This document shows, in pieces, positions 17,338-40,398 of a stretch of DNA of 64,000 nucleotides. The translations under genes were made by a program, and so were the position numbers. The stretch comes from Bacteroidales bacterium (lineage in GTDB: Bacteria; Bacteroidota; Bacteroidia; Bacteroidales; Marinilabiliaceae): contig JAFYCM010000048.1 in the NCBI GenBank assembly GCA_017539645.1, forward strand, positions 52,624-116,623, given 5' to 3'. Numbering within the stretch: the stretch's first letter is position 1; each line of letters starts with the position of its first letter. Below the pieces are notes generated by a model. The model saw only the letters and a list, made by a program, of their open reading frames with translations, had not been told where the DNA came from and ran no database searches.

Positions 17338-17369
17338 TTTGTTTTGGTAGCAACAAAACAATAACTTTG
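17338..17369 (+). promoter_or_regulatory. Bacteroidota-type promoter of the chemosensory operon
   Basis: A -33 TTTG at 17338-17341 is followed after 20 bp by a perfect -7 TAACTTTG at 17362-17369, fitting the TTTG / TAnnTTTG consensus of the Bacteroidota housekeeping sigma factor. The predicted transcript starts near 17376, giving an A-rich leader of about 48 nt to the ATG at 17424. It also argues against translation from the earlier ATG at 17367, which overlaps the -7 box. Confidence 0.7.
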
Positions 17370-17423
17370 AGGTTTGTAGTATGGAAGTATATTATTTCTT
17401 TTACTAACCGAAAACCGAAAAAG

Positions 17424-17945
17424 ATGAAAAAGATATTAGTCTTATTGCTGTTGTCGTTAGTAACGTATACAGCGCACGCTCAGAATAATCCTCAATTGGC
17501 GAAGGCAAAAGCAATGCTTATATTGAGTTTTGTTCGCTATGTGGGATGGAATGAATCAGTAAGAACTGGCGACTTTGTAATTGGAGTCGTGAAGGATAAG
17601 GAGCTTGTTGGTTTTTTGAAAAAACAATCCGAAGGCAAGAAATTCGGTTTTCAAGATGTTGTTATCAAGGAATATAATAACGTTGAAGATATAACCGATT
17701 GTCAGGTAATTTGTGTATCACAGAAGTATAACTTCATAAAGAATGCAGACAAAATATTAGACAAAGTAGGAAAAAACACATTGGTTATCACTGAGGTAGA
17801 AGGTGCAACAGCACGAGGTTCTATGATCAACTTCGTTGTAAGAGACGATAAATTGAAATTTGAATTGCATAAACAAAATGCTCAAGTGGCAGGTATACAG
17901 ATAAGTGCGAAACTATCTGATATGAGTTCTGCCATAAATCTTTGA
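17424..17945 (+). CDS. YfiR/DUF4154-family periplasmic protein
   Basis: A 173-residue protein with signal peptide MKKILVLLLLSLVTYTAHAQ and a mature domain resembling YfiR (DUF4154): AKAMLILSFVRYVGWNES, then a strand-rich core with FVIGVVKD and a conserved GSMINFVVRDDKLKFELH ending. In Pseudomonas, periplasmic YfiR represses the membrane cyclase YfiN; no GGDEF protein is encoded here, so it may instead sense for the chemoreceptor or GAF membrane proteins downstream. It is the first gene after the promoter at 17338. Confidence 0.8.
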   Translation: MKKILVLLLLSLVTYTAHAQNNPQLAKAKAMLILSFVRYVGWNESVRTGDFVIGVVKDKELVGFLKKQSEGKKFGFQDVVIKEYNNVEDITDCQVICVSQKYNFIKNADKILDKVGKNTLVITEVEGATARGSMINFVVRDDKLKFELHKQNAQVAGIQISAKLSDMSSAINL

Positions 17946-17968
17946 TAAATAAGTAAAAGAAATCAACC

Positions 17969-19708
17969 ATGGGAAAAGTATCGAGTTTTTTGGGTAAGTT
18001 GAATATTAACCAAAAAATGAAAATAGGTTTTGGTGTAATTTTCGCTTACATATTACTGAACGCTATTGTAACTATAGTAATACACATAGTTACGCAAAGC
18101 AAGCAATCGACGGAGACAGAGGAATATTTGCCAGTAAGAGCAGACCTTCTCGAGATGCAAAACCTTATTACAGAGTCAAAACGATTGACGGCAAGTTGGG
18201 TTTTCATTGAGAAGCAAGATAAAACTCCAGATAAAATTCGTCTTCGTACTATAGTTGATACTACCTTCACTAAGGTGTTCACTAACGTGAAAGAGATGAC
18301 TAAAGATTGGGAAACTTCTTTCACAGATACTTTGAATTATCTCGATACTAACATTCAGGAATATTTCAATTTACAACGTCAGGTGATGGACAACCTTAAC
18401 TCATTTGATGCCTACGATGATATGATGGCTCAAATGGAGAGTGAAAACTTGGCTGGTCCTGATGGTGATATAGCAATCATGTCTGTTGACCTTAATCAGG
18501 TAATGGAATACATGATTAATATTTGCGATGACAAGTGTACCGAGATAAAAGATAGCATACAGACATATACCAATATTCAGCTCTTTGTAGTAGTATTTAT
18601 GAGTTTGTTGGTTATAGCTATTGCAGTATTTGTAGCTATAATATTGATACAATCGATCGTAAAGCCTCTCAAAGACGGTGTTGAATTTGCGCAAGCAATT
18701 GGTAATGGTAATTTGAATGCCAATATTTCAGTTCATTCGAATGACGAAATTGGTCAATTGTGCGATGCTTTGCGCCAAATGGCTATAAACCTCAGAAATA
18801 TTGTATTCACTATAAATACAAACTCAAGTAAGTTGGTTGTTTCTGGTGAAACATTGAAGGCAAATTCAATGAAGTTGTCTAAAGGTGCGTCAGAGCAAGC
18901 AGCATCGGCAGAGGAAGTTTCTACTGCAATCGAAGAGATGGTTGCAAATATTGATCAGAATACGGAGAACGCTATTGCGACCGAAAAGATTACCTCTTCT
19001 ACAGTGGAGAATGTTAACCTTTCGAGCCAATATTCAAACGAGGCTGCCGAGGCAATGGGTATCATATCACAAAAGATTACCATCATCTCTGATATAGCAT
19101 TCCAAACAAACATTTTGGCATTGAACGCTGCTGTTGAAGCTGTTCGCGCTGGCGAACATGGCAAAGGCTTCTCTGTAGTTGCAGCCGAAGTAAGAAAGTT
19201 GGCAGAGAGAAGTAAGCAAGCAGCTAAGGAGATAGTTGATCTTGTTAATAAAGGTATGAAAGTGTCGCAACTCGCTGGTGAGAAGGCTAAAGCACTTGTA
19301 CCTGACATTGAGAAAACTACCGTACTTATAAAAGAAATATCTGCTGCTTCTATAGAACAAAAAACTGGTGCAGAGCAGATTAACACTGCAATGCAGAACT
19401 TGAACGTAATTACTCAAGAAAACGCTTCTGCGAGTGATGAACTTACCAATAGTTCTTTGGAATTGTCTCAATTGGCAGACAACCTCAAGAAAGTGGTAGG
19501 CTTCTTCAAACTCGATGGCGAGCAAACATATCAAGAAGAAAACAATAACACTGAATCGGAATCTGCTTCAGAAAGTAACGAAACAGAAGAGCAATCGAGA
19601 AGTGAGGTTGTAAGAGAAGCAAGACAAACACATACAACTGGAACTACCATTGACTTAGGAAAGTTATCTGCGAAGGATCTCGATGACGGCAACTACGAAT
19701 CGTTCTAA
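17969..19708 (+). CDS. Methyl-accepting chemotaxis protein with C-terminal CheR-tether pentapeptide
   Basis: The 579 residues comprise TM1 (about 19-42), a periplasmic helical sensor domain of about 160 residues, TM2 (about 204-228), HAMP (about 229-280) and the cytoplasmic signalling domain with the hairpin tip [16 protein letters not shown] (about 376-391). Glu/Gln-rich heptads on both arms provide methylation or deamidation sites. After a poorly conserved acidic linker, the last five residues are NYESF, closely matching the NWETF tether that binds CheR in enterobacterial receptors. It is the only receptor in the window. Confidence 0.95.
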
Positions 19709-19720
19709 AACTTTTTAGTA

Positions 19721-20026
19721 ATGAGTGAGTACAAAATAGAAGTTGTTGAAAAAAAAGAGGGTGCAGAAATACATTGTTCTGGTAATCTTGTAATCAACAA
19801 CATAGAAAAAATAGTTGAATACATACGAGAAAACGTGAGTCTTGAGCGAGGATATACCTTGTTTGTAGATAATCCAGAAAACTTAGACATAACGTTCATA
19901 CAGTTAGTAATATCTATGCGAAAGCAGATAGAAGCTGGCAACAATAAATTGGCGATAAAAATGGAGTTGAAAGACGACATGCGTCAATTAATAACAAAAT
20001 CAGGTTTAGATTACGCAATAAAATAA
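19721..20026 (+). CDS. STAS-domain protein
   Basis: A 101-residue SpoIIAA-like STAS fold: beta-rich N-terminus, LFVDNPENLDITFIQLVIS at the phosphorylation-loop position, and a helical C-terminus. The DSSG-type serine loop of classical anti-sigma antagonists is absent and replaced by ITFIQ, as in STAS proteins attached to chemotaxis operons, so kinase-dependent switching by an RsbW-like enzyme is unlikely. It lies between the receptor and CheY genes. Confidence 0.7.
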   Translation: MSEYKIEVVEKKEGAEIHCSGNLVINNIEKIVEYIRENVSLERGYTLFVDNPENLDITFIQLVISMRKQIEAGNNKLAIKMELKDDMRQLITKSGLDYAIK

Positions 20027-20043
20027 TATAACATACCGAATAT

Positions 20044-20409
20044 ATGGCAAAGACAGTTCTTATAGTTGACGACTCAGAAAGTATACGTGAGGTTGTGAAC
20101 TTTACTCTACAAAACGAAGGTTATGACGTTTTGGTGGGAGTAGATGGAGAAGATGCATTGAAATTTCTTGATGGTCGTAATATTGATATTGTTATTACCG
20201 ACCTTCACATGCCAAATCTTGATGGTTTGGGTTTGATTCGTAAGATTCGTGAAATGGATGCTTATAAGCATATTCCTATTCTCTTCCTTACGACAGAATC
20301 ACAGACTGAAAAGAAAATGGAAGCTAAGGAAGCCGGTGCAACTGGTTGGATTATAAAACCATTCGTTCCTGCGAAATTGTTAAGTGCTATTTCTCGTGTG
20401 CTACGTTAA
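20044..20409 (+). CDS. cheY: Chemotaxis response regulator CheY
   Basis: A 121-residue receiver with the acidic pair D9-D10, phospho-acceptor D53 in IVITDLHMPN, the Thr pair in FLTTES and Lys in IIKPF. It is the output regulator expected to be phosphorylated by CheA, encoded two genes downstream of the receptor. No flagellar motor genes occur here, so its target is unknown; gliding or another surface machine is possible. Confidence 0.9.
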   Translation: MAKTVLIVDDSESIREVVNFTLQNEGYDVLVGVDGEDALKFLDGRNIDIVITDLHMPNLDGLGLIRKIREMDAYKHIPILFLTTESQTEKKMEAKEAGATGWIIKPFVPAKLLSAISRVLR

Positions 20410-20490
20410 TGCAACGTTAACGGTATAATAGACAGAGAAATAATATTTTATAAATGACACGCTAGGAAAAGAAATAGAAAGTTATCAACT

Positions 20491-22578
20491 ATGGATGATG
20501 CGATAGATAAGTTCAAAGAGAAGTTCAAAGAAGAAGCTCTCGATAATGTCGCAAACATAGAGGAATCGCTTTTTCAGTTAGAAAACGAACCGGATAACAA
20601 AGAGTTGATAGAAAAACTCTTCCGTTCGATGCATACTATAAAAGGCGGTGGTGCTATGTTTGGTTTCAACGATTTGAGTACGTTTACACATAATCTTGAG
20701 ACCATTTACGACCTTATACGAAATGATAAGTTAGCAGTTACTAAGGATGTTATTTCGTTGACTTTTGAGAGTTTGGATTACATTCGTCAATTGCTCGATT
20801 TGGGTGTATTGACGGATCCAGATGATATTGCACGTCAGAAAGACTATATCGATCGCATTCAGAAGTATTTTCCAGAGGGCGAGGGATTATATGTAAATCC
20901 AAACAAAAAGGCTGCAACTCCGCAAGTTGCTGCACCTACTCAAGCGGCTGCTGCTCCACAAGGTGGAAAGAAAAACTATTTGGTTAATTTCTTCCCATTG
21001 GATACGCTATTGAATAATGGTTCAAACCCATTCTTCATTATTGACGACCTAACAGCAATGGGCGACTACAAAACGGTGGCTTTTATCAATGATATAAAGC
21101 CATTCAAAGATTTGAGTCCGCTCTCATTAGGCATCAAGTGGCAGATAATATTGTCGACTGACCAAGATGTAAACGATATAAAAGACGTATTCATCTTTGT
21201 AGAGGACGAGTGTAAGGTAGATATAAAAGAGCTTCCGGATGGTAAGATAGTGGAAGACACAGAGAATCTACCTAAGATTATCGACGAAGCCATCAGTCAG
21301 GGTAAATTGTTGGAAGCAAGCCAGTTTGAAATATTCAAGACTGTTAAGCCTGAAGTAAAAGAGCCGAAAGTAGAAGTGGCCAAAAAAGCTCCAACAGCGC
21401 AAGAAACAAAGATTTCATCGATGCGTGTTTCGTCAATTAAGATTGACGAACTCGTTGATGCTGTTAGTGAGTTAGTTACCATGCAAGCTCAGCTCAACTT
21501 GGTGGCAAGTAAGATTGACAATCAATCGTTGCTGGCAATTACAGAGCAGATGGAGAAACTCACGCGTCAATTGCGTGAAAACTCATTCGAGTTGAGTTTG
21601 ATTCCGCTTCAAGGCGAGTTAGTTCGTTTCCAGCGTTTGGTTCGCGACCTATGTAATAAACTTGGTAAGCAAATTAAGTTTGAAGTAGAAGGTGGCGAAA
21701 TAGAACTTGATAAAAACATTATAGAGCATCTTACCGATCCTCTACTTCACATAATTAGAAACTCAGGCGACCATGGTATTGAGTTGCCAGAAGAGCGTAT
21801 AGCTAAAGGTAAGAATCCTGAGGGTATAATTAAGTTGAAGGCCTTCTACTCAGGTTCGTCCGTAGTTATAAAGATTATGGACGATGGTAAGGGTATGGAT
21901 CCGAGCAAGATTCTAAATAAAGCAATCGAAAAAGGTCTTGTAGATCCCAATACTAAACTTTCGAAGAAAGAGATACTCAACTTGGTTTTTGCAAGTGGAT
22001 TCTCTACCGCCGAGAAAGTAAGCGACGTATCGGGTCGTGGTGTTGGTATGGATGTTGTAAAGAGCAAGATTGCTGAAATCCGTGGTGAGGTTAGTATCGA
22101 CTCTGAAATAGATCAGGGCACGACAATTACGTTAGACCTGCCATTGACACTATCGATTATTGATGGTTTGCTTACGAAAGTTAATAATGAGCAATTCATT
22201 ATACCACTATCGAACATAGAGCGAATAATTTCGTTTAGCGACGTCGACTTCAATAATAACAGTCAGAGCAGCATGTTCGTATATAACAACGAACAAGTTG
22301 TATGCATAAAGCTCGATGAATTCTTCTACAAGAAAGAAGAAGAACTCGACAAGGCGAAGATTGTTCTCGTTAGATGGAGCGATAAACTTGTTGGTTTGGT
22401 AGTAGATCAGGTTTTAGGAGAGTTTCAGATTGTAGTAAAACCGCTCGGGCGTTTCTTACGTAAGATAGATATGATTTCGGGTGCTTCGGTTATGGGCGAT
22501 GGATCACTATCGTTGGTAATAGACACAACCCGATTGATAAACTTCTACAATCAACGGAAGTATAAGGTAAACCATTGA
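20491..22578 (+). CDS. cheA: Chemotaxis histidine kinase CheA
   Basis: A 695-residue kinase. P1 Hpt domain: phospho-acceptor H48 in MHTIKGGGAMFGF. An Ala/Pro-rich linker (about 140-165) leads to a divergent 100-residue domain in the P2 position. The dimerisation helices start near 310 (SSIKIDELVDAVSELV). The catalytic domain shows the N-box HIIRNSGDHGIE, G1 DDGKGMD and G2 GRGVGMDVV. A CheW-like P5 domain ends the protein. All catalytic motifs are intact. Confidence 0.96.
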   Translation: MDDAIDKFKEKFKEEALDNVANIEESLFQLENEPDNKELIEKLFRSMHTIKGGGAMFGFNDLSTFTHNLETIYDLIRNDKLAVTKDVISLTFESLDYIRQLLDLGVLTDPDDIARQKDYIDRIQKYFPEGEGLYVNPNKKAATPQVAAPTQAAAAPQGGKKNYLVNFFPLDTLLNNGSNPFFIIDDLTAMGDYKTVAFINDIKPFKDLSPLSLGIKWQIILSTDQDVNDIKDVFIFVEDECKVDIKELPDGKIVEDTENLPKIIDEAISQGKLLEASQFEIFKTVKPEVKEPKVEVAKKAPTAQETKISSMRVSSIKIDELVDAVSELVTMQAQLNLVASKIDNQSLLAITEQMEKLTRQLRENSFELSLIPLQGELVRFQRLVRDLCNKLGKQIKFEVEGGEIELDKNIIEHLTDPLLHIIRNSGDHGIELPEERIAKGKNPEGIIKLKAFYSGSSVVIKIMDDGKGMDPSKILNKAIEKGLVDPNTKLSKKEILNLVFASGFSTAEKVSDVSGRGVGMDVVKSKIAEIRGEVSIDSEIDQGTTITLDLPLTLSIIDGLLTKVNNEQFIIPLSNIERIISFSDVDFNNNSQSSMFVYNNEQVVCIKLDEFFYKKEEELDKAKIVLVRWSDKLVGLVVDQVLGEFQIVVKPLGRFLRKIDMISGASVMGDGSLSLVIDTTRLINFYNQRKYKVNH

Positions 22579-22582
22579 TACT

Positions 22583-23041
22583 ATGGAAGAAGAAAAAATA
22601 ATATCGCTGACTACATTTCGCTCGGCAGGTGAGTATTTTGCATTCGAAACCATAAGAATTCGCCATATACTCGAGAACGTAACGCCAACACAAGTTCCTT
22701 TGACTAAGGATTATGTGCTTGGTATTATAAATAACCATGGAAATATGATTCCAGTAGTTGACTTTAGAAAAATTACTGGAGCCAAGGATTACGAAGAGAA
22801 TACAGAAGAAAGTTCAATCATAGTAGTAGCTTGCGAAGATAATAGCGGCGAGCAACTCGTCTCTTTCAAAGTAGATGAAGTAGACGATGTATTGAACTGT
22901 AATATAGATGATATATCGAAAGAAGTTGTTTATGAAGTAGAGCCAAGCGTACAAAAGTCGCTTACTGGAACCATAAAAATTGGCGATAAATTCATCTATA
23001 CTGTAGATATAGATACAATAGCTAAAGTGATAGAACAGTAA
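22583..23041 (+). CDS. cheW: Coupling protein CheW (copy 1)
   Basis: A 152-residue CheW domain that links receptors to CheA: FRSAGEYFAFETIRIRHIL start, the YVLGIINNHGNMIPVVDFRK core and a C-terminal hydrophobic repeat. It starts 4 bp after cheA and is followed 3 bp later by a second cheW. Two separate CheWs with a single receptor suggest different array positions or partners. Confidence 0.92.
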   Translation: MEEEKIISLTTFRSAGEYFAFETIRIRHILENVTPTQVPLTKDYVLGIINNHGNMIPVVDFRKITGAKDYEENTEESSIIVVACEDNSGEQLVSFKVDEVDDVLNCNIDDISKEVVYEVEPSVQKSLTGTIKIGDKFIYTVDIDTIAKVIEQ

Positions 23042-23044
23042 AAG

Positions 23045-23515
23045 ATGGAAGAAGAACAGATAAATTCATACCTAACATTCAAGATAGGCGAAGAACTTTA
23101 CGGAGTTCACGTTGAGCAAGTTTCGGAAATTTTGGAATACAAAGAGCCCGAGACTCGTACGAGTAATTTGCCCTATCTATTAGGTTTGGTCGACCACCGT
23201 GGTAGTATTATCCCATTGATAGACACGAGTATAAAATTTGGTGGTCAAGCCATACAGACAGATGACAAGGTATGTCTGTTAGTTCTGAACATAAAAAATA
23301 ATGACGAAACGTTCGAAGTGGCATTAATTGTGAATGAGATTTCTGACGTTTTGACAATAGAAGAAGCAGAAAAATCACACATTGAGACTAATTATAAGCC
23401 AGGTTATGTACAGTTTGCTGTCAAAAGAGAGGATATGTTTATGCTCGTAATAGATGCAAACAAAGTATTTGGCGATATGGAAATAGTCGAAATGAAAAAA
23501 TTTAGTGGTAAGTAA
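23045..23515 (+). CDS. cheW: Coupling protein CheW (copy 2)
   Basis: A 156-residue CheW with the canonical YLTFKIGEELYGVHVEQVSE start and YLLGLVDHRGSIIPLIDT core, closer to textbook CheW than copy 1. It is packed between the first cheW and cheR (3-bp spacings), consistent with one transcript. Confidence 0.93.
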   Translation: MEEEQINSYLTFKIGEELYGVHVEQVSEILEYKEPETRTSNLPYLLGLVDHRGSIIPLIDTSIKFGGQAIQTDDKVCLLVLNIKNNDETFEVALIVNEISDVLTIEEAEKSHIETNYKPGYVQFAVKREDMFMLVIDANKVFGDMEIVEMKKFSGK

Positions 23516-23518
23516 CAC

Positions 23519-24391
23519 ATGTCGGTAAACGAGAAATTATCAACTGGGGCGGAGTTGGACTGCTTCAAAGCAGAGCTTTCGGAGGCAGACTTCAAGATCT
23601 TCAGCAACTATATATATTCCGAATTTGGAATAAAGATGCCGGAGGTTAAGAGAGTCATGCTACAAGGAAGGTTGCTGAAGCGAATCCGACAATTGAAAAT
23701 GTCTTCGTATACTGAGTATAAAGAGTATTTTTTTAGTAAAGAGGGACAGCAGAAAGAACTATATAACTTTCTAAGCGTAGTTACGACCAACAAGACGGAT
23801 TTTTTCCGTGAGCCAGTGCATTTCGACTTTTTGACCAACACGCTTTTGCCTGAATTGGTGAACGAGCAAAAGAAATCTATGGTCAAAATATGGTCGGCTG
23901 CATGTTCGAGTGGCGAAGAGCCATACACCATAAGTATAGTATTGAACGAATTCAAAGAAGAGCATCCTCAATTCGGTTTCAGCATACTTGGCACGGATAT
24001 TTCGCTAAATGTACTCGACAAAGCGGCAAAAGGAATATACGCAGAGAAGGAAGTAGACCTGATTCCGCTCAATTTGAAGAAAAAATACTTCCTTAGAAGT
24101 AAGGACCGAAAGAACCCTACAGTAAAGGTTCAGCCGATACTTCAAAAAAATTTTTCACTTCAGTACCTGAATTTGATGGATTCGGTATACGATTTGAAGG
24201 AGACGTTTGACGTAATATTTTGTAGAAACGTGTTGATCTATTTCGATAGAGAGACACAAGAGAAAGTGATAAATAAATTATGTGAACGATTGATACCAGG
24301 AGGATACTTATTCATAGGACACAGTGAATCGGTAGCGAATATGAACGTACCATTGATAAACATAAAACCAACCATTTTCAAAAGAAAATAA
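23519..24391 (+). CDS. cheR: Chemoreceptor methyltransferase CheR (catalytic copy)
   Basis: SAM-dependent methylation of receptor glutamates. The 290 residues contain the N-terminal helical domain (FNYIY-like start, RLLKRIRQLKMSSYTEY), TTNKTDFFRE, the intact SAM motif WSAACSSGEEPYT, LGTDIS and FDVIFCRNVLIYF. This is the only one of three CheR-like proteins in the locus with a fully conserved SAM pocket. It is the likely user of the NYESF tether on the receptor. Confidence 0.95.
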   Translation: MSVNEKLSTGAELDCFKAELSEADFKIFSNYIYSEFGIKMPEVKRVMLQGRLLKRIRQLKMSSYTEYKEYFFSKEGQQKELYNFLSVVTTNKTDFFREPVHFDFLTNTLLPELVNEQKKSMVKIWSAACSSGEEPYTISIVLNEFKEEHPQFGFSILGTDISLNVLDKAAKGIYAEKEVDLIPLNLKKKYFLRSKDRKNPTVKVQPILQKNFSLQYLNLMDSVYDLKETFDVIFCRNVLIYFDRETQEKVINKLCERLIPGGYLFIGHSESVANMNVPLINIKPTIFKRK

Positions 24392-24406
24392 AAAACAAAG
24401 CGATAT

Positions 24407-25306
24407 ATGGATAGTCTTTCAGACAAGCAATTACTTCGTGAGTTGCGATTGCGGCTCGAAGAGAGAAAAACATTTGAAGAAAAATACAATGGATTATTTA
24501 GTGAGTATCAACTTTTGGGCAAACGCCTAAAAGAGTCGGAAGCACTGAAGAGCCATTTCATATCGAACATAACCAATGAGATAGTAAACCCATTCTCATC
24601 AATTATTGGTTTGTCTAAATCGATATTGTCGGTTGAGAAACAAGATTGGAAGAAGATTGTAACTATGGTTGCAATGATACATAGCGAAGCTTTCAACCTC
24701 GATTTTCAGTTGAAAAACATATTTACGGCAGCCAAGATTGAAGCAGGTGAGGTTCAGCCAAATATCTCTAAGGTGAATGTTAAGAGTTTGGTTCAGACGG
24801 TTATCGACAGCTTCTTGGTTGTAGCTCGCAAAATGGGCATCGAGATAGAGTTTGACTACAGAATAGAATTTGGATTTGGAAAGAACTTCTACTACAAGAC
24901 CGACTCAGAAAAACTCAAGCAAATACTTACTAACATTATAAACAATGCCGTAAAGTATAGCTACAAAGAGTCGAAAGTTATTGTTTCTATGTGGGTAGAA
25001 GACGATATACTTAATATCTCTGTACAAGACTTTGGTACTGGTATTTCGGAGAAGAATCAGAATTTGATATTCGAAAGATTCAAGCGACTCGATACTGGTA
25101 TTAACTCAATAAACCAAGGACATGGTTTGGGACTTTCGATTACCAAATCGTTGTTGGATTTGTTGAATGGCACGATAAGTATAAAGAGTAAAAAAGGAGA
25201 AGGAACCACGTTTACCATATCATTGCCAGAATCGTCGGCAGTTGTAAACGACTTGACCGATGATGACGGTGGATTCTTTGTTGACGACGGTGACGAGTTA
25301 TTTTAG
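24407..25306 (+). CDS. Histidine-kinase-like protein lacking the phospho-acceptor His
   Basis: A 299-residue soluble protein: an N-terminal coiled coil (about 10-48), a HisKA-like helix pair and a complete HATPase domain (N-box QILTNIINNAVKYS, G1 QDFGTGISE, G2 GHGLGLSI, GEGTTFTISLP). The H-box reads ITNEIVNPFSSIIG where kinases have SHEIRTP; Asn57 replaces His (codon AAT). It therefore cannot autophosphorylate conventionally and may act as an ATP-binding scaffold, an allosteric partner or a phosphatase. The acidic C-terminus (DDDGGFFVDDGDELF) is unusual. It lies between cheR and cheD. Confidence 0.85.
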   Translation: MDSLSDKQLLRELRLRLEERKTFEEKYNGLFSEYQLLGKRLKESEALKSHFISNITNEIVNPFSSIIGLSKSILSVEKQDWKKIVTMVAMIHSEAFNLDFQLKNIFTAAKIEAGEVQPNISKVNVKSLVQTVIDSFLVVARKMGIEIEFDYRIEFGFGKNFYYKTDSEKLKQILTNIINNAVKYSYKESKVIVSMWVEDDILNISVQDFGTGISEKNQNLIFERFKRLDTGINSINQGHGLGLSITKSLLDLLNGTISIKSKKGEGTTFTISLPESSAVVNDLTDDDGGFFVDDGDELF

Positions 25307-25317
25307 AAAAACGACGA

Positions 25318-25791
25318 ATGGAATATTCACAACATTTTTTATATCCATCGTCATTTTTCACGAGTCGAGAGCCTTATATAGTGAAGACAGTTCTAGGTTC
25401 GTGTGTGGCAGTTTGTCTTTGGGATAAGCGGTTACACTTTGGAGGAATAAATCACTATATGTTGCCTATGTGGAATGGTGCCGATTTGGCATCGCCTAAG
25501 TATGGCAATATAGCGATCGAGAAGTTGTTGGAGAGAATGCGAAGCATGGGCAGCCGCACAGAAGACCTGCAAGCGAAAGTTTTTGGAGGTGGCGACTTGC
25601 TAAGTGTATCTGGTGAATCATCGACAACAAAGATAGGTGAGCGAAATATCGAGGTAGCCAAAATGATGCTTGCTCAGGAGAAGATACCTATAGTAGGCTC
25701 AAGTTTGGGAGGAAAGAGGGGAAGGAAAATTATTTTCCTGACCGATACTGGAGAAGTAAGGCATAAGTTTCTCGAAAAACACGAGATATAG
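25318..25791 (+). CDS. cheD: Chemoreceptor glutamine deamidase CheD
   Basis: Converts receptor Gln residues to Glu. The 157-residue protein has the catalytic Cys in [13 protein letters not shown], the catalytic His in GGINHYMLP and the FGGGDLL segment. It is co-transcribed with cheB, which starts 14 bp downstream, completing the adaptation set (R, D, B). Confidence 0.93.
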
Positions 25792-25805
25792 AAGCGATAA
25801 ATGTC

Positions 25806-26963: not shown

Positions 26964-27006
26964 AAACACATAGCCGTCGTAATAAGAGGCTTTTCATATT
27001 TACTAA

Positions 27007-28899: not shown

Positions 28900-28910
28900 G
28901 AGTTGAAAAG

Positions 28911-29717: not shown

Positions 29718-29746
29718 CATATATATCACATAACAACACACAAGCT

Positions 29747-31101: not shown

Positions 31102-31103
31102 AT

Positions 31104-32033: not shown

Positions 32034-32044
32034 GGAATAGGTAT

Positions 32045-34666
32045 ATGAAGAATAAGAAACAGCAAACAGTGTTCAAATACCTTTCGCCTCGGGGCTTTTC
32101 CGAGATGCAATGGTATGCCGCATTTGTGGCTGTCATTGTTGTGCTCTTTATTGGCTGGACTTCGGTGATGAGCCTCTTGGGCTTTAGTGTCTCGTTTTTC
32201 AGCATTGCATATCTGCACCGTAGCCTGTTTGTTTGGCTATTCGACATTGCTGTTGTTCTGCTCCCATTATTTACCTTATATATAAGTAATTACCGTCGTA
32301 TAAAGCTCGACGAACTCAGGCGCAAGATAGACGACCTTCAAGGTCAAATAGATACCAGTATAATTATGGCTGGTAAGATTGGCGCCGGACAGGAACTCGA
32401 CGATCAGACTGAAAATGAGGAGAGCGACCTTCAGAAAGCGCTCCTTGCATTGGGTAAAAACCTTTCGGATACTAAAGAGAAAGAACAACAGTTTGGCTGG
32501 GTAAGTAAAGGCAAGGAAAAAATCTCCGATATTCTGCGTGTCAACAACGACCTCGAAGAGTTGGCAGTTGCCTCGCTTCAAGGCATAGTGTCGTATTATG
32601 GCGCTGTGCAAGGCGTGTTCTTCATTCTTGATGATAATGGCATATTGAAGGCTGTTACTCAGTATGCATACGACCGTCGTAGATATGAAAAAGTAGAAAT
32701 AGAAATTGGTCACGGACTTGTTGGTGCGGCTGCCTACGAGAAGCAAATCATCTATCGCACCGAAATTCCCGATGATTATTTCACCATAACTTCAGGCTTA
32801 CTCAACGACCAGAAGCCAAAGTCGATACTCATCATACCACTATTGCAAGAGCAACAAGTGCAAGGCGTGCTCGAACTTTCGTTCTTCCGCAAGAGTCTGC
32901 CAGATTACTTCATTGCGCTTGCAGAAGAGATTGGCAACGTTGTAGGTGGTAGTATCTATAACATGAAAAACAACCTCCGCACGGAAAACCTTCTCCACGA
33001 ATCGCAGAAGATGACCGAGACTCTTCGCAAAAACGAGGAGCAGCTCCGCGAGAATGCGCGCGAGATGATGGAGGCGCAAGAGCAACTTGAATCATCGAAT
33101 AAAGAGTTGGCCGAAAAGATGCGCGAGGTTGAGCTTGCACAGAAGAAGTTGCAGGCGTTGCTTACCAATGCGTCGGAGTTTATCTCTATATACGATGAGA
33201 ATCGCGAATTGGTGTTCGAAAGTCCTTCTATTCGCCGAATATTGGGCTATGGACCCGATGAAGAGGTTCATGGTATGGACGAGGAGATGATGACTCCTCG
33301 TGGTTACAAGAGCATCTGCAGCATGTTCGATTATTTGCTCGAAACACCCGGTGGTGAGGCTGCCGAGCAATATACATACCTAAAGAAAAACGGCGAGAAG
33401 ATTTTCCTTGAGACGCAAGGCAAGAACCTCATACACGACCCAGCCATCCGCGGTTTGATATTCAACACTCGCGATATTACTGAACGTAAGCGTGCCGAGA
33501 AAGAGGAACGCATGAAGAGCCGTATGCAATCACTGTCGGAGAACTCTCCGGATATGATTATACGTACGAACACGAAAGGAAAGATGGTTTATGCCAATCC
33601 AGCAGCATCGAAATTCTTGCAGAAAGATGTCGCAGAGCTTGTTAGCATGCGTATTTCCGAAATTGACACAAACCCTAATTTCGTTCAATATATTACAGAT
33701 ACGCTCAAAGATATTCGTCGTAGCAAAGCGGCAGTTGAGTCTGAGATTGAAGTCGAAGTTGAAGGAGAGCAGCGTATTGTAGAGATAAAAGGCATTCCAG
33801 AGTTTGGCGAAGACGAAACGCTCGAGTCTGTGCTCTACTCTGCTCACGACGTGACTGAACTTAAGCGCATCGAACAAGAGGTAAAAGATAAGAACAAGAA
33901 GATTCAGGATAGTATTAATTATGGTAAGCGCATTCAGATGGCTATCATGCCAGAGGCGTCAATATACCAACAGAGCTTCCCGAATTCCTTCATGTTTTAT
34001 AGGCCCAAAGACGTCGTTTCGGGTGACTTCCCATGGTATTTCGAGTGGGGCGATATTAGCTATGTAGCTGCTGTAGACTGTACAGGTCACGGTGTGCCAG
34101 GTGCAATTCTGTCTATTATTGGTTACTTGATGCTTACTAACATAGTAGACAATGGTCACGAACTTACAGCAGCTCAGATTCTCGATAGACTTCATGCGGC
34201 AGTGCGCAAGACACTTCGTCAGGATGTCGATGGAGCCAATGGTCGAGAAGGTATGGATATTGGTCTGTGCCGAATCGACAAATCGAAGAAAGAACTACAA
34301 TTTGCTGGTGCTCACCGTCCATTGTACTATGTACGCGATGGTGAATTTACCGAGTATAAAGCCTCACGTAAAGGCATTGGTGGTATACCTTTGCCTGGTC
34401 GTCCGGAAAAAGATTTTGAGAACAACGTCATTGAATATAAAGAGGGAGATAGATTTTTCGTATTCTCCGATGGTCTGCCAGACCAATTGGGCGGTGGGCC
34501 AGGAGTGAAGAAGAAATATCAAACTTCGCGTTTCAAAGATTTGCTCGATCGCGACAAGAACGAAAGCATGGTAGGTATCGAAAAAGACCTTATCAAAGAC
34601 TTCTACGAATGGGTCGGCGATGAGAAACAAGTCGATGACGTATTACTAATAGGAATCGAATTATAA
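32045..34666 (+). CDS. Membrane GAF-PAS-PAS-PP2C (SpoIIE-type) serine/threonine phosphatase, SiaA/RsbU-like
   Basis: The 873 residues carry two TM regions (about 22-45 and 50-80), GAF (about 150-310), a coiled coil (about 318-375), two PAS domains (about 375-485 and 495-620) and a C-terminal SpoIIE/PP2C phosphatase (about 625-873). The phosphatase metal-site motifs are present: DVVSGDF, DCTGHGVPGA, EGMDIGLC, FSDGLPDQ and VDDVLLIG. SiaB- and SiaC-like genes follow directly, so the natural substrate is predicted to be phospho-SiaC, as for SiaA in Pseudomonas; the sensor part differs from SiaA. Confidence 0.9.
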   Translation: MKNKKQQTVFKYLSPRGFSEMQWYAAFVAVIVVLFIGWTSVMSLLGFSVSFFSIAYLHRSLFVWLFDIAVVLLPLFTLYISNYRRIKLDELRRKIDDLQGQIDTSIIMAGKIGAGQELDDQTENEESDLQKALLALGKNLSDTKEKEQQFGWVSKGKEKISDILRVNNDLEELAVASLQGIVSYYGAVQGVFFILDDNGILKAVTQYAYDRRRYEKVEIEIGHGLVGAAAYEKQIIYRTEIPDDYFTITSGLLNDQKPKSILIIPLLQEQQVQGVLELSFFRKSLPDYFIALAEEIGNVVGGSIYNMKNNLRTENLLHESQKMTETLRKNEEQLRENAREMMEAQEQLESSNKELAEKMREVELAQKKLQALLTNASEFISIYDENRELVFESPSIRRILGYGPDEEVHGMDEEMMTPRGYKSICSMFDYLLETPGGEAAEQYTYLKKNGEKIFLETQGKNLIHDPAIRGLIFNTRDITERKRAEKEERMKSRMQSLSENSPDMIIRTNTKGKMVYANPAASKFLQKDVAELVSMRISEIDTNPNFVQYITDTLKDIRRSKAAVESEIEVEVEGEQRIVEIKGIPEFGEDETLESVLYSAHDVTELKRIEQEVKDKNKKIQDSINYGKRIQMAIMPEASIYQQSFPNSFMFYRPKDVVSGDFPWYFEWGDISYVAAVDCTGHGVPGAILSIIGYLMLTNIVDNGHELTAAQILDRLHAAVRKTLRQDVDGANGREGMDIGLCRIDKSKKELQFAGAHRPLYYVRDGEFTEYKASRKGIGGIPLPGRPEKDFENNVIEYKEGDRFFVFSDGLPDQLGGGPGVKKKYQTSRFKDLLDRDKNESMVGIEKDLIKDFYEWVGDEKQVDDVLLIGIEL

Positions 34667-34694
34667 AAAGTACTATATTTACACACTTTTAATT

Positions 34695-35279
34695 ATGTGC
34701 AGTATGAATAAAATAGTCGGAAGCAAAGACTTCTTAGAGTTTGCATATGAGCTATATCACACTATGCAAGCCAACGAAATCAACTTGGTCTATGAAGGTG
34801 TTGTAACACAAGAGATTACAAAAACATTCACCGCATTGACTGAGAAGAACATGGTGAAAAACGAGGAGTCGAACCAAGTTCAACGTAAAGTTTTCAACGT
34901 TATGGTAGAATGCTTGCAGAACATCAGTAAGCATGCCGATGCTATGACCGAAGATGCCGATGAAGAGCGTCGCGGTATTGTGTTGGTTAGCCATGGTGAG
35001 AATTTTTACAATGTCATCACTGGTAACGTCATAAAGAAAGAGAAGAGAGATAAGCTTGAGAAGAGCCTTGAGCATATCAACAGCCTCGACAAAGAGGGTC
35101 TTTCGGCATTGTATAAACAGCAAATCAAAGAAGGAAAATTATCTGAAAAAGGTGGAGCTGGTCTTGGCTTTATAGATATTGCTAAGAAGTCTGGCAACAA
35201 AATTGAATACCAATTCAAAGAATTGACGGATGACCGTTTCTTCTTCATAGTAATAACAACCATTTCAAGAAATAACTAA
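34695..35279 (+). CDS. SiaB-like protein kinase (DUF6272)
   Basis: A 194-residue protein resembling SiaB, the HATPase-type kinase that phosphorylates SiaC. The ATP-binding elements are recognisable as VECLQNISKHAD (N-box region, about 70-81) and GGAGLGFIDIA (lid glycines, about 154-164). An alternative start at 34704 would remove three residues. It sits between the PP2C phosphatase and the SiaC-like gene, the order seen in Sia operons. Confidence 0.85.
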   Translation: MCSMNKIVGSKDFLEFAYELYHTMQANEINLVYEGVVTQEITKTFTALTEKNMVKNEESNQVQRKVFNVMVECLQNISKHADAMTEDADEERRGIVLVSHGENFYNVITGNVIKKEKRDKLEKSLEHINSLDKEGLSALYKQQIKEGKLSEKGGAGLGFIDIAKKSGNKIEYQFKELTDDRFFFIVITTISRNN

Positions 35280-35297
35280 TAGACAAACCCCAAAAGA

Positions 35298-35672
35298 ATG
35301 GACGTAATAAGCATAAAAGGTACAGATGATACGCCGAGCGTAACACTTGACAAAGACAAAGGCGCATTTATTTTCGAAGGTCGCTCACTGCCAGAAGACG
35401 TAGGCGATTTCTATCAGCCAATACTTAATTGGTTGGATGCGTATGCTCAAGAGCCAAATGATACCACTGATGTGATGTTCAAACTTGAATATTTCAACAC
35501 TGCATCGTCGAAAGTTATCCTCGACATTTTGCTAAAATTCGAAGAGATAAACGAGGCAAAAGGTGGTGTAACTATCAAGTGGCACTATCACGAGGACGAA
35601 GAGGATATGAAAGAGGCAGGTGAAGAATACGAAGACATCGTCTCTGAGCCATTTGAATACATTGTCTACTAA
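35298..35672 (+). CDS. SiaC-like regulatory phosphoprotein (DUF1987)
   Basis: A 124-residue acidic protein of the SiaC/DUF1987 family. Its LEYFNTASSKVI segment carries a threonine at position 68, the same number as the Thr68 phosphorylated by SiaB in Pseudomonas aeruginosa SiaC. There, unphosphorylated SiaC binds and stimulates the diguanylate cyclase SiaD; no such cyclase is encoded here, so the effector must be different. The adjacent ABC transporter, which begins 50 bp later, is the obvious candidate. Confidence 0.88.
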   Translation: MDVISIKGTDDTPSVTLDKDKGAFIFEGRSLPEDVGDFYQPILNWLDAYAQEPNDTTDVMFKLEYFNTASSKVILDILLKFEEINEAKGGVTIKWHYHEDEEDMKEAGEEYEDIVSEPFEYIVY

Positions 35673-35721
35673 TAATGGTAGGCAATAGTTTATACACCGC
35701 ACTATAAGAAGATAGTTACAC

Positions 35722-38700
35722 ATGAGTGAAGAAATCCTTGGCGCTCTTATGGAATTGTTTGGCTTGATTGCCAAGCAAGACGATGGAGTTGAAGCAGCGG
35801 AAGTCGAGTTTGTGCGACAGTTTCTCAAGTCTCAGATTGAGGTTGAGAAAATAGAGTCGTACATGGCTTTGTTTACTGAGAAAGCAAAATCTACAGTAAA
35901 ATACGACAAAGATGGCAACCCCATCGTTGACGTGCGCGACTCTGTGAAAATCCTTGGATTTTGTCGTAAGATAAACAAGAAACTCAACCGCGAGCAGAAG
36001 GTTGTTGTATTGGTGCGTATCTACGAGATGCTCAGCGTTTCCCGCAAATTCACCGAGAAACGAATGGAGGTCATCAATACAGTAGCAGATGTATTTACTC
36101 TTGCTAAAGATGAAGTCAAGGCTATTGAGGCGTTCAACGTTCAAGATAGCATAGAAAACCTTGATATTCAGTCGATACTCATTGCTAACGAACAAGAAGA
36201 TCAGACCTATACAAACGCACTTCACGTTACAGTTGGTGCACTCGATGGAAACATATTCATACTGCGTGTTCAGAGTGCCAACATGTATTTTATACGTTAC
36301 TTAGGTAACCAAGAAGTGTTTGTGAACGGTCAGCTATTGGCTCCAAGGCATGTATATCCGCTCTCGAAAGGTAGTTTCATAAAAATGCCGCAAGGCGCGC
36401 CGCTTTACTATACTGATATTGTAGCAAAGTTCATGAACGAGACCACGCTTCAGAAAATCTCGTTCGAAGTGAAGAATATGTATTATCGCTTCAAAAATGG
36501 AGCTTTAGGTTTGCGCAATATCAATATGGCCGAAGAGCAAGGCAAACTCATAGGTATTATGGGTGCGTCGGGTGCTGGTAAGACAACGCTTTTGAACGTG
36601 CTTTGTGGCAACGAAGCACCGTCGGAAGGCGAAGTGCTTATCAATGGCTTGAATCTTCACACGCAGAGTGACTTGCTCGAGGGTGTAATTGGTCTTATAC
36701 CACAAGATGATCTTCTTATAGAGGAACTTACTGTATATCAGAATCTTTACTACAATACAAAACTTTGCTTCAAGGATAAAACCGAGGAAGAAATTGACCA
36801 AATGGTCTGCAACACGCTTATGAGCTTAGGTCTCTACGAGCGTAAAGATTTGACCGTTGGTTCGCCGCTCAACAAGACCATCAGTGGTGGTCAGCGTAAG
36901 CGTTTGAACATCGCCCTCGAGCTTATCCGAGAGCCAGCCATTCTCTTCGTTGATGAGCCTACATCAGGTCTTTCATCGCGCGACTCGGAGAATGTGATGA
37001 ACCTCTTGCGCGAGTTGTCGCTCAAAGGCAAACTTGTGTTTGTAGTTATCCACCAGCCATCGTCGGACATTTATAAGATGTTCGATAAGATGTTTATTCT
37101 CGATACTGGTGGTTATCCAGTATATTATGGTAACCCAACGCAGTCGATAACATACTTCAAGCACCTCGACGAGCAAGTAAATGCCGATGTGGGCGAGTGT
37201 CCTGTGTGTGGTAACCTAAATCCAGAACTTGTTTTCAACGTACTCGATGCTTCGGTAATCGACGAATATGGTAATTATACCAACCAGCGCAAGGTTAAGC
37301 CTGAGGAGTGGTATAATAAATACGAAGAAAATATTGAGTTGCCGAAAGTAAAGACGGTAACCGACCAACCGCCGCGTGGACTTAACATTCCAAGTTGGTT
37401 CAAGCAGTTCAGAATATATACTGTGCGTGATTTCTGGGCTAAGATTAGCAACACTCAGTATATACTTTTGAATATACTCGAGGCGCCGCTGTTGGGTTTC
37501 ATATTGGCGTACCTCATACGCTATATTGTCGATCCAGACTCCGATGTATATATCTTCCGCGAGAACGAGAACATACCTATATATATATTTATGGGTATCA
37601 TCGTGGCGATATTCTTTGGTTTGATTATTTCGGCGGAAGAGATTTTCAAAGATGCCAAGATACTCAAGCGAGAAGCCTTTTTGAACCTAAGTAGGTCGGC
37701 CTATTTGGTATCGAAAATATTCATATTGATGGGTATTTCGGCCATTCAGATGATATTGTTCTTGCTGGTAGCCAATGCAATAATTGGATTCAAAGGCATG
37801 AACACCGAGTTCTTCTTGATGTTGTTTTCGGTGTCGGTATCGTCGAACTTGATAGGCTTGATAATATCATCGGCATTCAACTCGATTGTAACCATCTACA
37901 TTATGATTCCGCTCTTGATGATACCTCAGATGGTGTTGGGCGGTGCAATGTTTACATTCGATAAACTGAACAAAGACTTCACTACCGTAGGCGAAGTGCC
38001 GCTCATTGCCGAGTTCATTCCAGCGCGCTTTGCATACGAAGGATTGACGGTATATCAGTACAAGCATAATAATTATGGAAAACTGTTCTTCGAAGACGAG
38101 ATGAAGAACAGTCAGGCCAACTATAAGCAAGTCTACTATTTGCCAGAACTTTCGCAGGCGCTCGATAAGTCGATAAATGCGCAGCGACGCAATAAGGAGA
38201 AAGATAGTACGGGTGTATACACCAAGACCTATACAATGGATTTGGCGCTGCTACGCAACGAGTTAGGCAAAGAGACACGTCGCGTACCTAATATTGAGTT
38301 CTCGGCGTTGGAAAAGTTGAATACTGCTGATTTCAACGAAGAGGTTTACGAGGCTACGCAGAACTACATTAGCCAACTGACGGCCGTTTATGGTGAAATG
38401 GCGCGTACTGCCATAAATAATATCGATAGAAAAATCGACTATTATCTCGAGAATAAGAAAGAATTATTCCTCGCAACTAAGGATGCCTACTACAACGAGC
38501 AGTTGACAGACATATTGAAAAAGACATTTGATAAGAACAAGATTCTGCGCGATGGTGACAACCTCATACAGGTGCTTGATCCAATCTATCAGATGCCAGA
38601 GCCAAAAGGTTTGCTGCCATTCCGTACGCATTTCTTTGCGCCATACAAATATGTACCAGTTATCGGTGTGTTTGTAGAGACGTTGTGGTTCAACATAGTA

Positions 38701-38895
38701 TCTATATGGTTGTTGTCGATATTCTTCTACGTAGTGCTCTATTTCGACTGGACACGCCGTGCAATAGAATATCTGTCGCATGTGGATTACAAAGAAATAA
38801 TGGATGAAATAAAGCAGCATTTACCAAAAATTCAGAAACCAAAATTTCTGAGTAGCGTAAAAGCGATAGTATCCAAAAAGAAAGCGAAGAAATAA
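35722..38895 (+). CDS. TerB-FHA-like-ABCG fusion ABC transporter
   Basis: The 1057 residues start with a TerB-like helical domain (about 1-140) and an FHA-like beta domain (about 170-245). The ABC ATPase has Walker A GASGAGKTT (about 281-289), signature ISGGQRKR (about 388), Walker B ILFVDEP and H-loop VIHQPSS. A CPVCGN motif near 494 resembles a metal knuckle. ABC-2 type membrane segments span about 583-760, with a further TM near 985-1008 and a basic tail. Half-size ABCG layout with N-terminal signalling domains suggests phospho-dependent control of export. Substrate unknown. Confidence 0.9.
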   Translation: MSEEILGALMELFGLIAKQDDGVEAAEVEFVRQFLKSQIEVEKIESYMALFTEKAKSTVKYDKDGNPIVDVRDSVKILGFCRKINKKLNREQKVVVLVRIYEMLSVSRKFTEKRMEVINTVADVFTLAKDEVKAIEAFNVQDSIENLDIQSILIANEQEDQTYTNALHVTVGALDGNIFILRVQSANMYFIRYLGNQEVFVNGQLLAPRHVYPLSKGSFIKMPQGAPLYYTDIVAKFMNETTLQKISFEVKNMYYRFKNGALGLRNINMAEEQGKLIGIMGASGAGKTTLLNVLCGNEAPSEGEVLINGLNLHTQSDLLEGVIGLIPQDDLLIEELTVYQNLYYNTKLCFKDKTEEEIDQMVCNTLMSLGLYERKDLTVGSPLNKTISGGQRKRLNIALELIREPAILFVDEPTSGLSSRDSENVMNLLRELSLKGKLVFVVIHQPSSDIYKMFDKMFILDTGGYPVYYGNPTQSITYFKHLDEQVNADVGECPVCGNLNPELVFNVLDASVIDEYGNYTNQRKVKPEEWYNKYEENIELPKVKTVTDQPPRGLNIPSWFKQFRIYTVRDFWAKISNTQYILLNILEAPLLGFILAYLIRYIVDPDSDVYIFRENENIPIYIFMGIIVAIFFGLIISAEEIFKDAKILKREAFLNLSRSAYLVSKIFILMGISAIQMILFLLVANAIIGFKGMNTEFFLMLFSVSVSSNLIGLIISSAFNSIVTIYIMIPLLMIPQMVLGGAMFTFDKLNKDFTTVGEVPLIAEFIPARFAYEGLTVYQYKHNNYGKLFFEDEMKNSQANYKQVYYLPELSQALDKSINAQRRNKEKDSTGVYTKTYTMDLALLRNELGKETRRVPNIEFSALEKLNTADFNEEVYEATQNYISQLTAVYGEMARTAINNIDRKIDYYLENKKELFLATKDAYYNEQLTDILKKTFDKNKILRDGDNLIQVLDPIYQMPEPKGLLPFRTHFFAPYKYVPVIGVFVETLWFNIVSIWLLSIFFYVVLYFDWTRRAIEYLSHVDYKEIMDEIKQHLPKIQKPKFLSSVKAIVSKKKAKK

Positions 38896-38914
38896 ACTCA
38901 TAAAACTTATAGTA

Positions 38915-39859
38915 ATGATAAAGCACATGTTGATGGCCGTTGCATTAGTCGGCGGTCTGCATCTTATGACAGGATGTTCAGGAAATTCAAACAGTTCTGA
39001 AGGTTCACTCGACGAGCCAATTCCAGATTCAACAATAACAAACGGTCCTCTCGAAATTTCGGAAGGTGTTGTAAATGATATGATTCAGAACATATCATCG
39101 CCAGTAGAAATGGCAAACATGATTCTTGGTTCGGGAGTCCCATTCTCGCAGCAGATGCTTAATCCTTCAGAAAACATGAAGAATTATAGCACGAGCTTCA
39201 AGCGTGCAATCAACCTTGGTGCTTATAGTGCTGACCTTGGTTACATCAACTGCTACAACAAGAACACCGTTGTTGTTTCTTACCTCTTGGCAGTTAAGGA
39301 GTTGGCTGATGGTATTAACGTTGGTCAGTTCATCGATTTCCAGATGTTGAAGAGACTTGCGTCTAACTCATCGAACCTCGATTCGTTGAAGCAGATGTCA
39401 GTAACCAGCTTCAATGATATGGATAAATACCTCCGCGAGCAGAAACGCGCTAATGTAAGTACTGCAATTATCGCGGGTGCATGGACAGAAGGTATCTACT
39501 TGACTTGCTCGGTTGTTGAGCAAATGCAGCAAAACAAGAATACCGATCCAGCTAAATTGAAAGAACTTGTACACCGCCTCGGTGAGCAGAAAGATATTGT
39601 AAACATTCTCAAAATAGTTGTTCATAACTACTCACAACTCGATCGTAACTTCCAAACGCTCGAAGATAAAATCAATGAACTTCAGACTGTTTATGAGGGT
39701 GTTCGTATCACTACCGAGTTTGCTCCACCCGAAATGGTTGAACAAGATGGTATGCTTGTGATTGTACAACACGAAATCAGCCACGTTGAGATTAGCGATG
39801 AGCAGATAGCTCAAATCATCGCAAAAATCAAAGAATTGCGTGAGTTTATCGTAGGCTAA
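38915..39859 (+). CDS. Helical lipoprotein of unknown function
   Basis: A 314-residue protein with a lipoprotein signal (LMTGCSGN, Cys21) followed by an S/N-rich linker and a largely helical body containing INLGAYSADLGYINCYN and a C-terminal helix (DEQIAQIIAKIKELREFI). I do not recognise the family. It starts 19 bp after the ABC transporter gene and is probably its envelope partner. Confidence 0.75.
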   Translation: MIKHMLMAVALVGGLHLMTGCSGNSNSSEGSLDEPIPDSTITNGPLEISEGVVNDMIQNISSPVEMANMILGSGVPFSQQMLNPSENMKNYSTSFKRAINLGAYSADLGYINCYNKNTVVVSYLLAVKELADGINVGQFIDFQMLKRLASNSSNLDSLKQMSVTSFNDMDKYLREQKRANVSTAIIAGAWTEGIYLTCSVVEQMQQNKNTDPAKLKELVHRLGEQKDIVNILKIVVHNYSQLDRNFQTLEDKINELQTVYEGVRITTEFAPPEMVEQDGMLVIVQHEISHVEISDEQIAQIIAKIKELREFIVG

Positions 39860-39900
39860 TAGTTGGCAAAAGAAGAGAACTAACAATAAAAAAGAAGAAG

Positions 39901-40335
39901 ATGAAGAATATTATATTAACAATTATCGCCCTCTTCGGTTTGGCATCGATGGCGTCGGCACAGTGTGGCGACGATTTGATGAAAAAAGCTCTCGCTGCGA
40001 TGGGTGGATACCAATATATCAAAGACTTTGACATAAAAGTGCCTGCTGGTGCAGCCGATGGAACTACGTTCTCTATCGTGCTCAATAGCCGTACGCACTA
40101 TCAAATAAATGTGGCTAATGGCGCTTCGAACCCAGAGCACGTTACAATCAAAATTTTCGATGCATCGGGCAAATTGACCGGTATCAATGCTTCGAATGGT
40201 AAGGTGTTCGATACTTTCCAGTTTATCTGTGGTAAGACGGGTGCATACAAATTACAAGTAACTTGCTCAGGCGAGGCTTGCGCGCGTGCCGTACTTTCAC
40301 TCATAAAGCAATATACCGAAGCTGAAATGCCGTAA
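39901..40335 (+). CDS. Small secreted protein of unknown function
   Basis: A 144-residue protein with signal peptide MKNIILTIIALFGLASMASA and a mature beta-rich domain with four cysteines (CGDD, FICG, TCSGEACAR), which could form disulfides. It has no recognised domain. It is the last gene before the terminator at 40363 and likely belongs to the same transcript as the transporter and lipoprotein. Confidence 0.75.
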   Translation: MKNIILTIIALFGLASMASAQCGDDLMKKALAAMGGYQYIKDFDIKVPAGAADGTTFSIVLNSRTHYQINVANGASNPEHVTIKIFDASGKLTGINASNGKVFDTFQFICGKTGAYKLQVTCSGEACARAVLSLIKQYTEAEMP

Positions 40336-40362
40336 TTTGCGGTTTATATTATAAAACTATAT

Positions 40363-40398
40363 AGAAGGTCGCTCATGATTGAGTGACCTTCTTTTTTC
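40363..40398 (+). terminator. Rho-independent terminator of the chemosensory operon
   Basis: AGAAGGTCGCTCA and TGAGTGACCTTCT form a long stem (one unpaired base) followed by a T-rich run. It closes the 23-kb plus-strand gene array. The rest of the intergenic region up to the next terminator (40399-40582) shows no recognisable element. Confidence 0.85.

Follow-up and report, generated by a model that had tools for sequence, protein, structure and literature searches.

The window analysed here, a 64,000-nucleotide stretch of a Bacteroidales genome of the Marinilabiliaceae (assembly GCA_017539645.1, contig JAFYCM010000048.1, positions 52,624 to 116,623), carries an operon of 22 genes, in which chemosensory (che) genes are followed by relatives of the Sia phosphoswitch of Pseudomonas aeruginosa and by an ABCG-type exporter. 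We give about an even chance to the view that the second half of this operon is a self-contained signalling-export module, whose Sia-type switch would control the exporter and which, in Marinilabiliaceae, would be co-expressed with the chemosensory array. All coordinates refer to the window, and all operon genes lie on its plus strand.

The SiaB-SiaC switch and the adjoining exporter

The switch genes siaB and siaC directly precede the exporter gene. The SiaB-family protein kinase (DUF6272; 34695–35279) matches NF038262 with 171.1 bits (cut-off 85) as well as PDB entry 6kko, chain A. Its motifs E..QN and GGAGLG, which we take to be GHKL residues, are both present in the window copy, and E..QN is kept in 76 of 77 rows. 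The SiaC-family phosphoswitch protein (35298–35672; PF09345, 136 bits) was aligned to 6kko and 6k4f and keeps Thr68. The YFNT context of this residue is found in 73 of 80 rows; the other seven comprise two fragments and five paralogues from the window's own genome, four of them with Thr and one with Ser at this position. Catalytic residues are kept in SiaB and SiaC as well as in the PP2C phosphatase and the methylesterase CheB2 described below.

The exporter (35722–38895) combines a nucleotide-binding domain (PF00005) and a following ABC-2 domain (PF01061) in one chain, with a long stretch between the predicted transmembrane (TM) helices TM5 and TM6, and its solved relatives include ABCG chains. 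The N-terminus of the window copy scores 24.3 bits with TerB at a cut-off of 24.4, next to two other weak Pfam matches (E ≤ 5), and TerB is matched by 22 of 24 exporter N-termini. In the label TerB-FHA-ABCG, given to the protein in an earlier note on this DNA, the FHA part, taken up below, lacks support. The last two genes encode a lipoprotein (38915–39859), which is co-conserved with the exporter, has an invariant Cys21 in 32 sequences and yielded no convincing family or solved relative in family and fold searches, and a small exported protein, possibly Ig-like (39901–40335), with a signal peptide read from the sequence and sub-threshold matches only. A paralogue of the lipoprotein is located directly upstream of an exporter paralogue of the same genome (L170, 7065–15966), with a PP2C gene further up; the 16 kb of this locus contain no siaC match.

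SiaC is found directly upstream of, and on the same strand as, 39 of 44 exporter orthologues (gaps of 21–371 bp), and for the remaining five no SiaC is among the matches listed. No other observation speaks as strongly for the exporter as a putative SiaC target as this pairing with the orthologues. A second arrangement occurs with exporter paralogues, 23 of the 106 listed having SiaC tail-to-tail within about 1 kb, each in a separate genome (23 of 54 genomes); the counts for both arrangements draw on 150 listed exporter rows and 150 listed SiaC rows. Seven tail-to-tail loci (L181–L187) represent a second class of TerB-ABC exporters facing siaB-siaC pairs, and in two of these seven genomes (G112 and G125) there is no CheA match. 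SiaC-family matches as such are present in 63 of 149 genomes of the order, with up to 21 per genome.

In P. aeruginosa, partner binding by SiaC is blocked once Thr68 is phosphorylated, and DUF1987 proteins have been suggested by the same authors to modulate adjacent proteins (PMC8457831). No GGDEF match was found in the own genome (97.45% complete) or in any of 60 family genomes, which agrees with the earlier reading of the window as free of GGDEF genes and makes the SiaD output of Pseudomonas unlikely here; an output via cyclic di-GMP (c-di-GMP) was rejected on the same grounds. In the proposed mechanism, the membrane-bound GAF-PAS-PP2C phosphatase, in the role of SiaA, would together with its own CheR/CheB-type enzymes and the GAF proteins counter the SiaB kinase, and the balance between SiaB and PP2C would set the phosphorylation of Thr68. 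Unphosphorylated SiaC would dock on the regulatory N-terminus of the exporter (the TerB region) and alter its activity, driving the exporter in place of the diguanylate cyclase that is its target in Pseudomonas, with the lipoprotein and the small exported protein as possible periplasmic or outer-membrane partners. SiaC-exporter binding, the direction of the switch, the exported substrate and any signal from CheA/CheY to the Sia proteins are predictions from sequence.

Together, switch and exporter appear to form a separate module, and this suggests a c-di-GMP-independent output for a Sia-type switch, and the conserved exporter partner provides a concrete candidate target for SiaC-family proteins. 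A literature search, outside which most subscription papers fell, listed no paper whose title or opening abstract lines deal with this operon or a SiaC-exporter pair, and DUF6272 occurred in none of the papers covered.

Adaptation-type genes, operon layout and module boundary

Upstream of siaB, the Sia-side block begins with CheR2 (28911–29717; PF01739, 113.5 bits), CheR3 (29747–30544; PF01739, 56.5 bits, with a divergent S-adenosylmethionine motif in the window copy) and CheB2 (30541–31101; PF01339, 162 bits), which consists of the methylesterase domain only and is devoid of a receiver domain. These are followed by a fast-evolving GAF membrane protein (31104–32033; GAF_2, 31.2 bits; median family identity 24%) and by the GAF-PAS-PAS-PP2C phosphatase (32045–34666; SpoIIE, PF07228), which has two TM helices and a SiaA-like C-terminus. 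Against the SiaA model the phosphatase scores 161.7 bits over residues 604–870, the whole-protein cut-off being 700 and the sensor half being different; 80 of 86 rows carry the full set of its metal motifs. Ser, His and Asp of CheB2, at the positions that we assume to form the catalytic triad, are conserved in all 84 aligned rows; this count was taken from the alignment, as strict triad patterns proved too strict and fitted just 43 of 83 rows.

At loci selected via PP2C, CheB2 precedes the phosphatase wherever flank is available (77 of 77), and at least two CheR-like genes do so at all 72 loci where the flank is long enough. CheR2, CheR3 and CheB2 belong with PP2C and not with the array. The second half of the operon thus contains the phosphatase, SiaB, SiaC and ABCG genes that had been assigned to it, and in addition these three CheR/CheB-type genes; the true module boundary falls after the GAF-PAS gene (at 28899) and not where the split had been drawn. 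If the proposed mechanism is true, chemotaxis-type adaptation enzymes would be tied to a phosphatase instead of an array.

The operon comprises 22 open reading frames (ORFs) from the ATG of yfiR at 17424 to the stop codon of exp at 40335, free of internal stops and with intergenic gaps of −4 to 81 bp, in line with the co-directional, closely spaced genes described before. A promoter-like motif TTTG-N20-TAACTTTG (17338–17369), well placed upstream of the first gene, is an exact match to the −33/−7 pattern, which by consensus we take to be the Bacteroidota promoter type. Two exact matches are observed in the window with 1.19 expected by chance, so that the motif by itself is weak evidence for the promoter claimed at this end; a motif scan of the window found no further exact plus-strand match inside the operon. 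At the other end, the strong intrinsic terminator is confirmed as a hairpin of 13 pairs followed by a T run (40363–40392). Between the operon's two ends, no terminator-like plus-strand site exceeds 7 pairs. The junction between the GAF-PAS gene and cheR2 measures 3–57 bp in 45 loci, in none of which the −33/−7 motif was found; three loci carry the motif between the ABC and lipo genes. All 22 genes may share a single transcript.

Three units can be distinguished, namely yfiR-mcp-STAS-cheY-cheA-cheW-cheW-cheR-HK-cheD-cheB-GAFPAS (unit 1), cheR2-cheR3-cheB2-GAF-PP2C (unit 2) and siaB-siaC-ABC-lipo-exp (unit 3). Two other genera of Marinilabiliaceae possess all 22 genes in identical order (L044 with L045, L046 with L047). 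The PP2C alignment, run against the collection, gave 198 relatives, 80 of which were kept for locus counts: where the flank suffices, 42 of 68 loci have the che core upstream, 58 of 73 have siaB-siaC-ABC downstream, and 28 of 62 are complete on both sides. The closest named relative, 97% identical over PP2C, stems from the metagenome-assembled genome Bacteroidales bacterium SIG108 (L074), and the joined loci with a family or genus label are mostly from Marinilabiliaceae, while one locus is labelled Chlorobiota (L125).

Units 2 and 3 recur across Bacteroidales, often distant from che genes, and are found together without a nearby che core, among others in five loci of genomes without detected CheA (G093, G018, G053, G014 and G043). 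Unit 3 is undivided in the four rearranged family cases examined; L174–L177 show it intact though moved, and L178 and L179 show it divergent from the che block. In L050–L052, chosen for a SiaC on the same contig, the Sia genes lie 0–16 kb from CheA in other arrangements. One of these genomes, G054 (L051 and L173), which is outside the family, carries CheA about 14 kb from an opposite-strand cheR2-cheB2-GAF-PP2C-siaB-siaB-siaC-ABC module on one contig.

Linkage to the chemosensory array and rival explanations

In Marinilabiliaceae the module would be transcribed with the upstream array (MCP-CheA-CheW-CheY with CheR, CheD and CheB), so that array and exporter would be expressed together; they probably serve the same surface behaviour, and exporter and Sia module are candidate outputs for Bacteroidota chemosensory systems. 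The synteny is not confined to the own genome: 37 of 60 family genomes encode CheA and the exporter on one strand, no more than 20 kb from each other. Among the 149 genomes of the order, CheA and an exporter orthologue are both present in 33, CheA only in 8, the exporter only in 11 and neither in 97 (Fisher odds ratio 36, p = 2.6e-16). These statistics are not corrected for the phylogeny, and common descent may have raised them; the association is kept in three genome-size classes. By comparison, 3 of 19 genomes with SiaC and without an exporter orthologue have CheA. Of 21 genomes picked because they showed the module with no che core in sight, 18 have a CheA match; for L131, L145 and L153 the upstream flank is too short to rule linkage out, and without these three the count is 16 of 18.

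Several observations weigh against this reading. Of the 60 family genomes, 9 have CheA and the exporter on one contig but separated by 42–119 kb or facing opposite ways, and in a further 13 they are on different contigs and may still be linked; the last family genome (G192) lacks a CheA match, and its best exporter match (E 1.1e-203) is not of orthologue grade. The 11 order genomes with an exporter and no detected CheA, and the 8 with the reverse, point in the same direction, as does the fact that a physical coupling of the array to the Sia proteins would have to be postulated. The earlier proposal that array and Sia switch may jointly gate the exporter is supported in part, by synteny, short junctions, unlinked co-occurrence and the lack of a GGDEF match, and runs counter to the exporters found without CheA or apart from it. 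With regard to the switch itself, for 83 of the 106 exporter paralogues the listed matches include no SiaC within 1.5 kb. The own genome encodes seven SiaC proteins and three exporters with the same N-terminus; the two exporter paralogues are without a nearby SiaC and the other SiaC copies without a nearby exporter, so that SiaC and exporter are not regularly paired there.

Two further points concern the contacts within the module. The FHA family (PF00498) does not appear in the complete Pfam results for the window exporter (E ≤ 5 for its N-terminus), and it is not among the 25 of 36 families listed for the 24 exporter N-termini; the idea of an FHA domain as phospho-threonine reader on the exporter was abandoned on this basis. 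In a comparison with solved structures, the N-terminus matches yeast Mek1 entry 5yyx at E = 0.97, in a region that is presumably the Mek1 FHA domain. The methylation-site consensus that we assumed occurs at two sites in the methyl-accepting chemotaxis protein (MCP) and has no match in the GAF-PAS, GAF and PP2C proteins. As it matches the MCP alone, methylation by CheR2/CheB2 of a canonical site on the GAF-PAS or PP2C coiled coil was rejected. A bolder version of the proposal, which we regard as doubtful, would see SiaC as the c-di-GMP-free on/off switch of Bacteroidales TerB-ABCG exporters, with PP2C set by its own CheR/CheB adaptation as a sensory memory that feeds a Ser/Thr phosphoswitch, and the whole wired to the array in Marinilabiliaceae.

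Among the alternatives, a pair of separate pathways that share a transcript but have no molecular cross-talk is conceivable though rather unlikely: the array would steer a surface motor, such as the type IX secretion system (T9SS)/gliding machinery via CheY, and the Sia switch would control the exporter. Module and che core do each occur elsewhere without the other in view, and the own genome encodes GldL of the T9SS motor. Furthermore, in five family copies CheY is 93–96% identical, compared with 51–64% for CheA (best segment), as though a conserved target held CheY in place; this suggests an output partner under strong constraint. Independent pathways do not explain, however, why module and CheA co-occur even if unlinked, nor the CheR/CheB-type genes on the Sia side at every locus with enough flank.

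A considerably less likely explanation reverses the roles, the exporter being a sensor whose TerB region reads the flux of substrate through the ABC protein and signals to SiaC/SiaB, the true target of which would be something else, such as the STAS protein, a motor or a sigma-factor circuit. Sia-type switches work via partner binding, and the SiaC copies of the own genome that lack an exporter nearby would fit this explanation. Against it, the exporter adjoins siaB-siaC in two arrangements, and a scan of the seven tail-to-tail loci, which covered relatives of the window proteins and did not compare unrelated genes, found no additional shared partner except a relative of the lipoprotein in two of the seven and a distant PP2C in one. 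An ordinary chemotaxis operon with accessory genes adjacent by chance, as might be inferred from the che cores without siaB, siaC or exporter orthologue within 20 kb at 11 of 11 order-level loci (L053–L063), is very improbable in view of the 22-gene order kept in other genera, the short junctions at 45 loci and the odds ratio given above. The module with a SiaC-controlled exporter, co-expressed with the array, is thus the reading that we prefer.

Related systems and the chemosensory genes

The module shares with P. aeruginosa SiaABCD a homologous PP2C phosphatase, the SiaB kinase and SiaC with Thr68. It is not classed as SiaABCD, since the GGDEF output SiaD was not found in the 60 family genomes; moreover, GAF-PAS sensing here precedes the phosphatase, and the neighbours are CheR/CheB-type genes and an ABCG exporter. 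Rv1747-type FHA-ABCG exporters likewise have an N-terminal regulatory part, tied to Ser/Thr phosphorylation, whereas the N-terminus described here is TerB-like, with FHA missing from the Pfam lists of the window protein. In CheB-CheR-PAS histidine kinase fusions, CheB/CheR enzymes are coupled to PAS sensors, as they may be here, where the corresponding genes are separate and adjoin PP2C. The HmpUVW partner switch of Nostoc punctiforme belongs to a motility and polysaccharide locus and has no known direct target (PMC8256260). HmpV is a STAS-domain-only protein and not of the SiaC family, and the portion of the text dealing with that system names no exporter (PMC8256260).

The first half of the operon (17424–28899) contains the complete Che set attributed to it. 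Pfam and NCBIfam support the YfiR/HmsC-like protein, MCP, CheA, the three CheR, CheD and both CheB as well as the GAF/PAS, SpoIIE-type PP2C, DUF6272/SiaB, SiaC and ABC-2/ABCG assignments. CheY and the two CheW were assigned, without domain search, by sequence reading and conserved position. The components of a chemosensory array are therefore present, namely MCP, CheA, CheR and CheB by Pfam, CheY by motifs and CheW by sequence and position.

The YfiR/HmsC-like protein (DUF4154; 17424–17945; PF13689, 92.5 bits) is followed by the MCP (17969–19708; PF00015 and, for its HAMP domain, PF00672), with two predicted TM helices, and by a STAS-domain protein (19721–20026), the window copy of which scores 16.0 bits, below the cut-off of 22.6, which two homologues exceed (32.6 and 26.5 bits). 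The CheY (20044–20409) motifs are retained by 14 of 14 relatives above 60%. CheA (20491–22578), with Hpt, H-kinase_dim, HATPase and CheW domains, is the sole CheA match in a search of the whole own genome. Two CheW (22583–23041 and 23045–23515) and the canonical CheR1 (23519–24391; PF01739, 205.2 bits) precede a histidine-kinase-like ATPase (24407–25306; PF02518), in which Asn replaces the His of the H-box. All 55 rows above 150 bits, in which some genomes are counted twice, show Asn where the phospho-accepting His would stand; the 18 weaker kinase-like rows from these loci divide into 10 with His and 8 that do not match the pattern. The product is probably a regulatory ATPase and not a histidine kinase, and it appears to be a conserved pseudokinase-like component of che operons across the order.

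The block is completed by CheD (25318–25791; PF03975, 100.2 bits), CheB with receiver and methylesterase domains (25806–26963; PF01339, PF00072) and the GAF-PAS-PAS protein (27010–28899), whose ORF is listed from a TTG at 27007, the ATG being the next codon. This protein has two TM helices, a domain search found no output domain in it, and its residues 341–360 are among the most conserved (0.92, mean 0.75). The operon is followed by a probable lipoprotein gene on the minus strand (40640–41386) and a sigma-54 (rpoN)-like gene (41647–43113), both recognised by eye.

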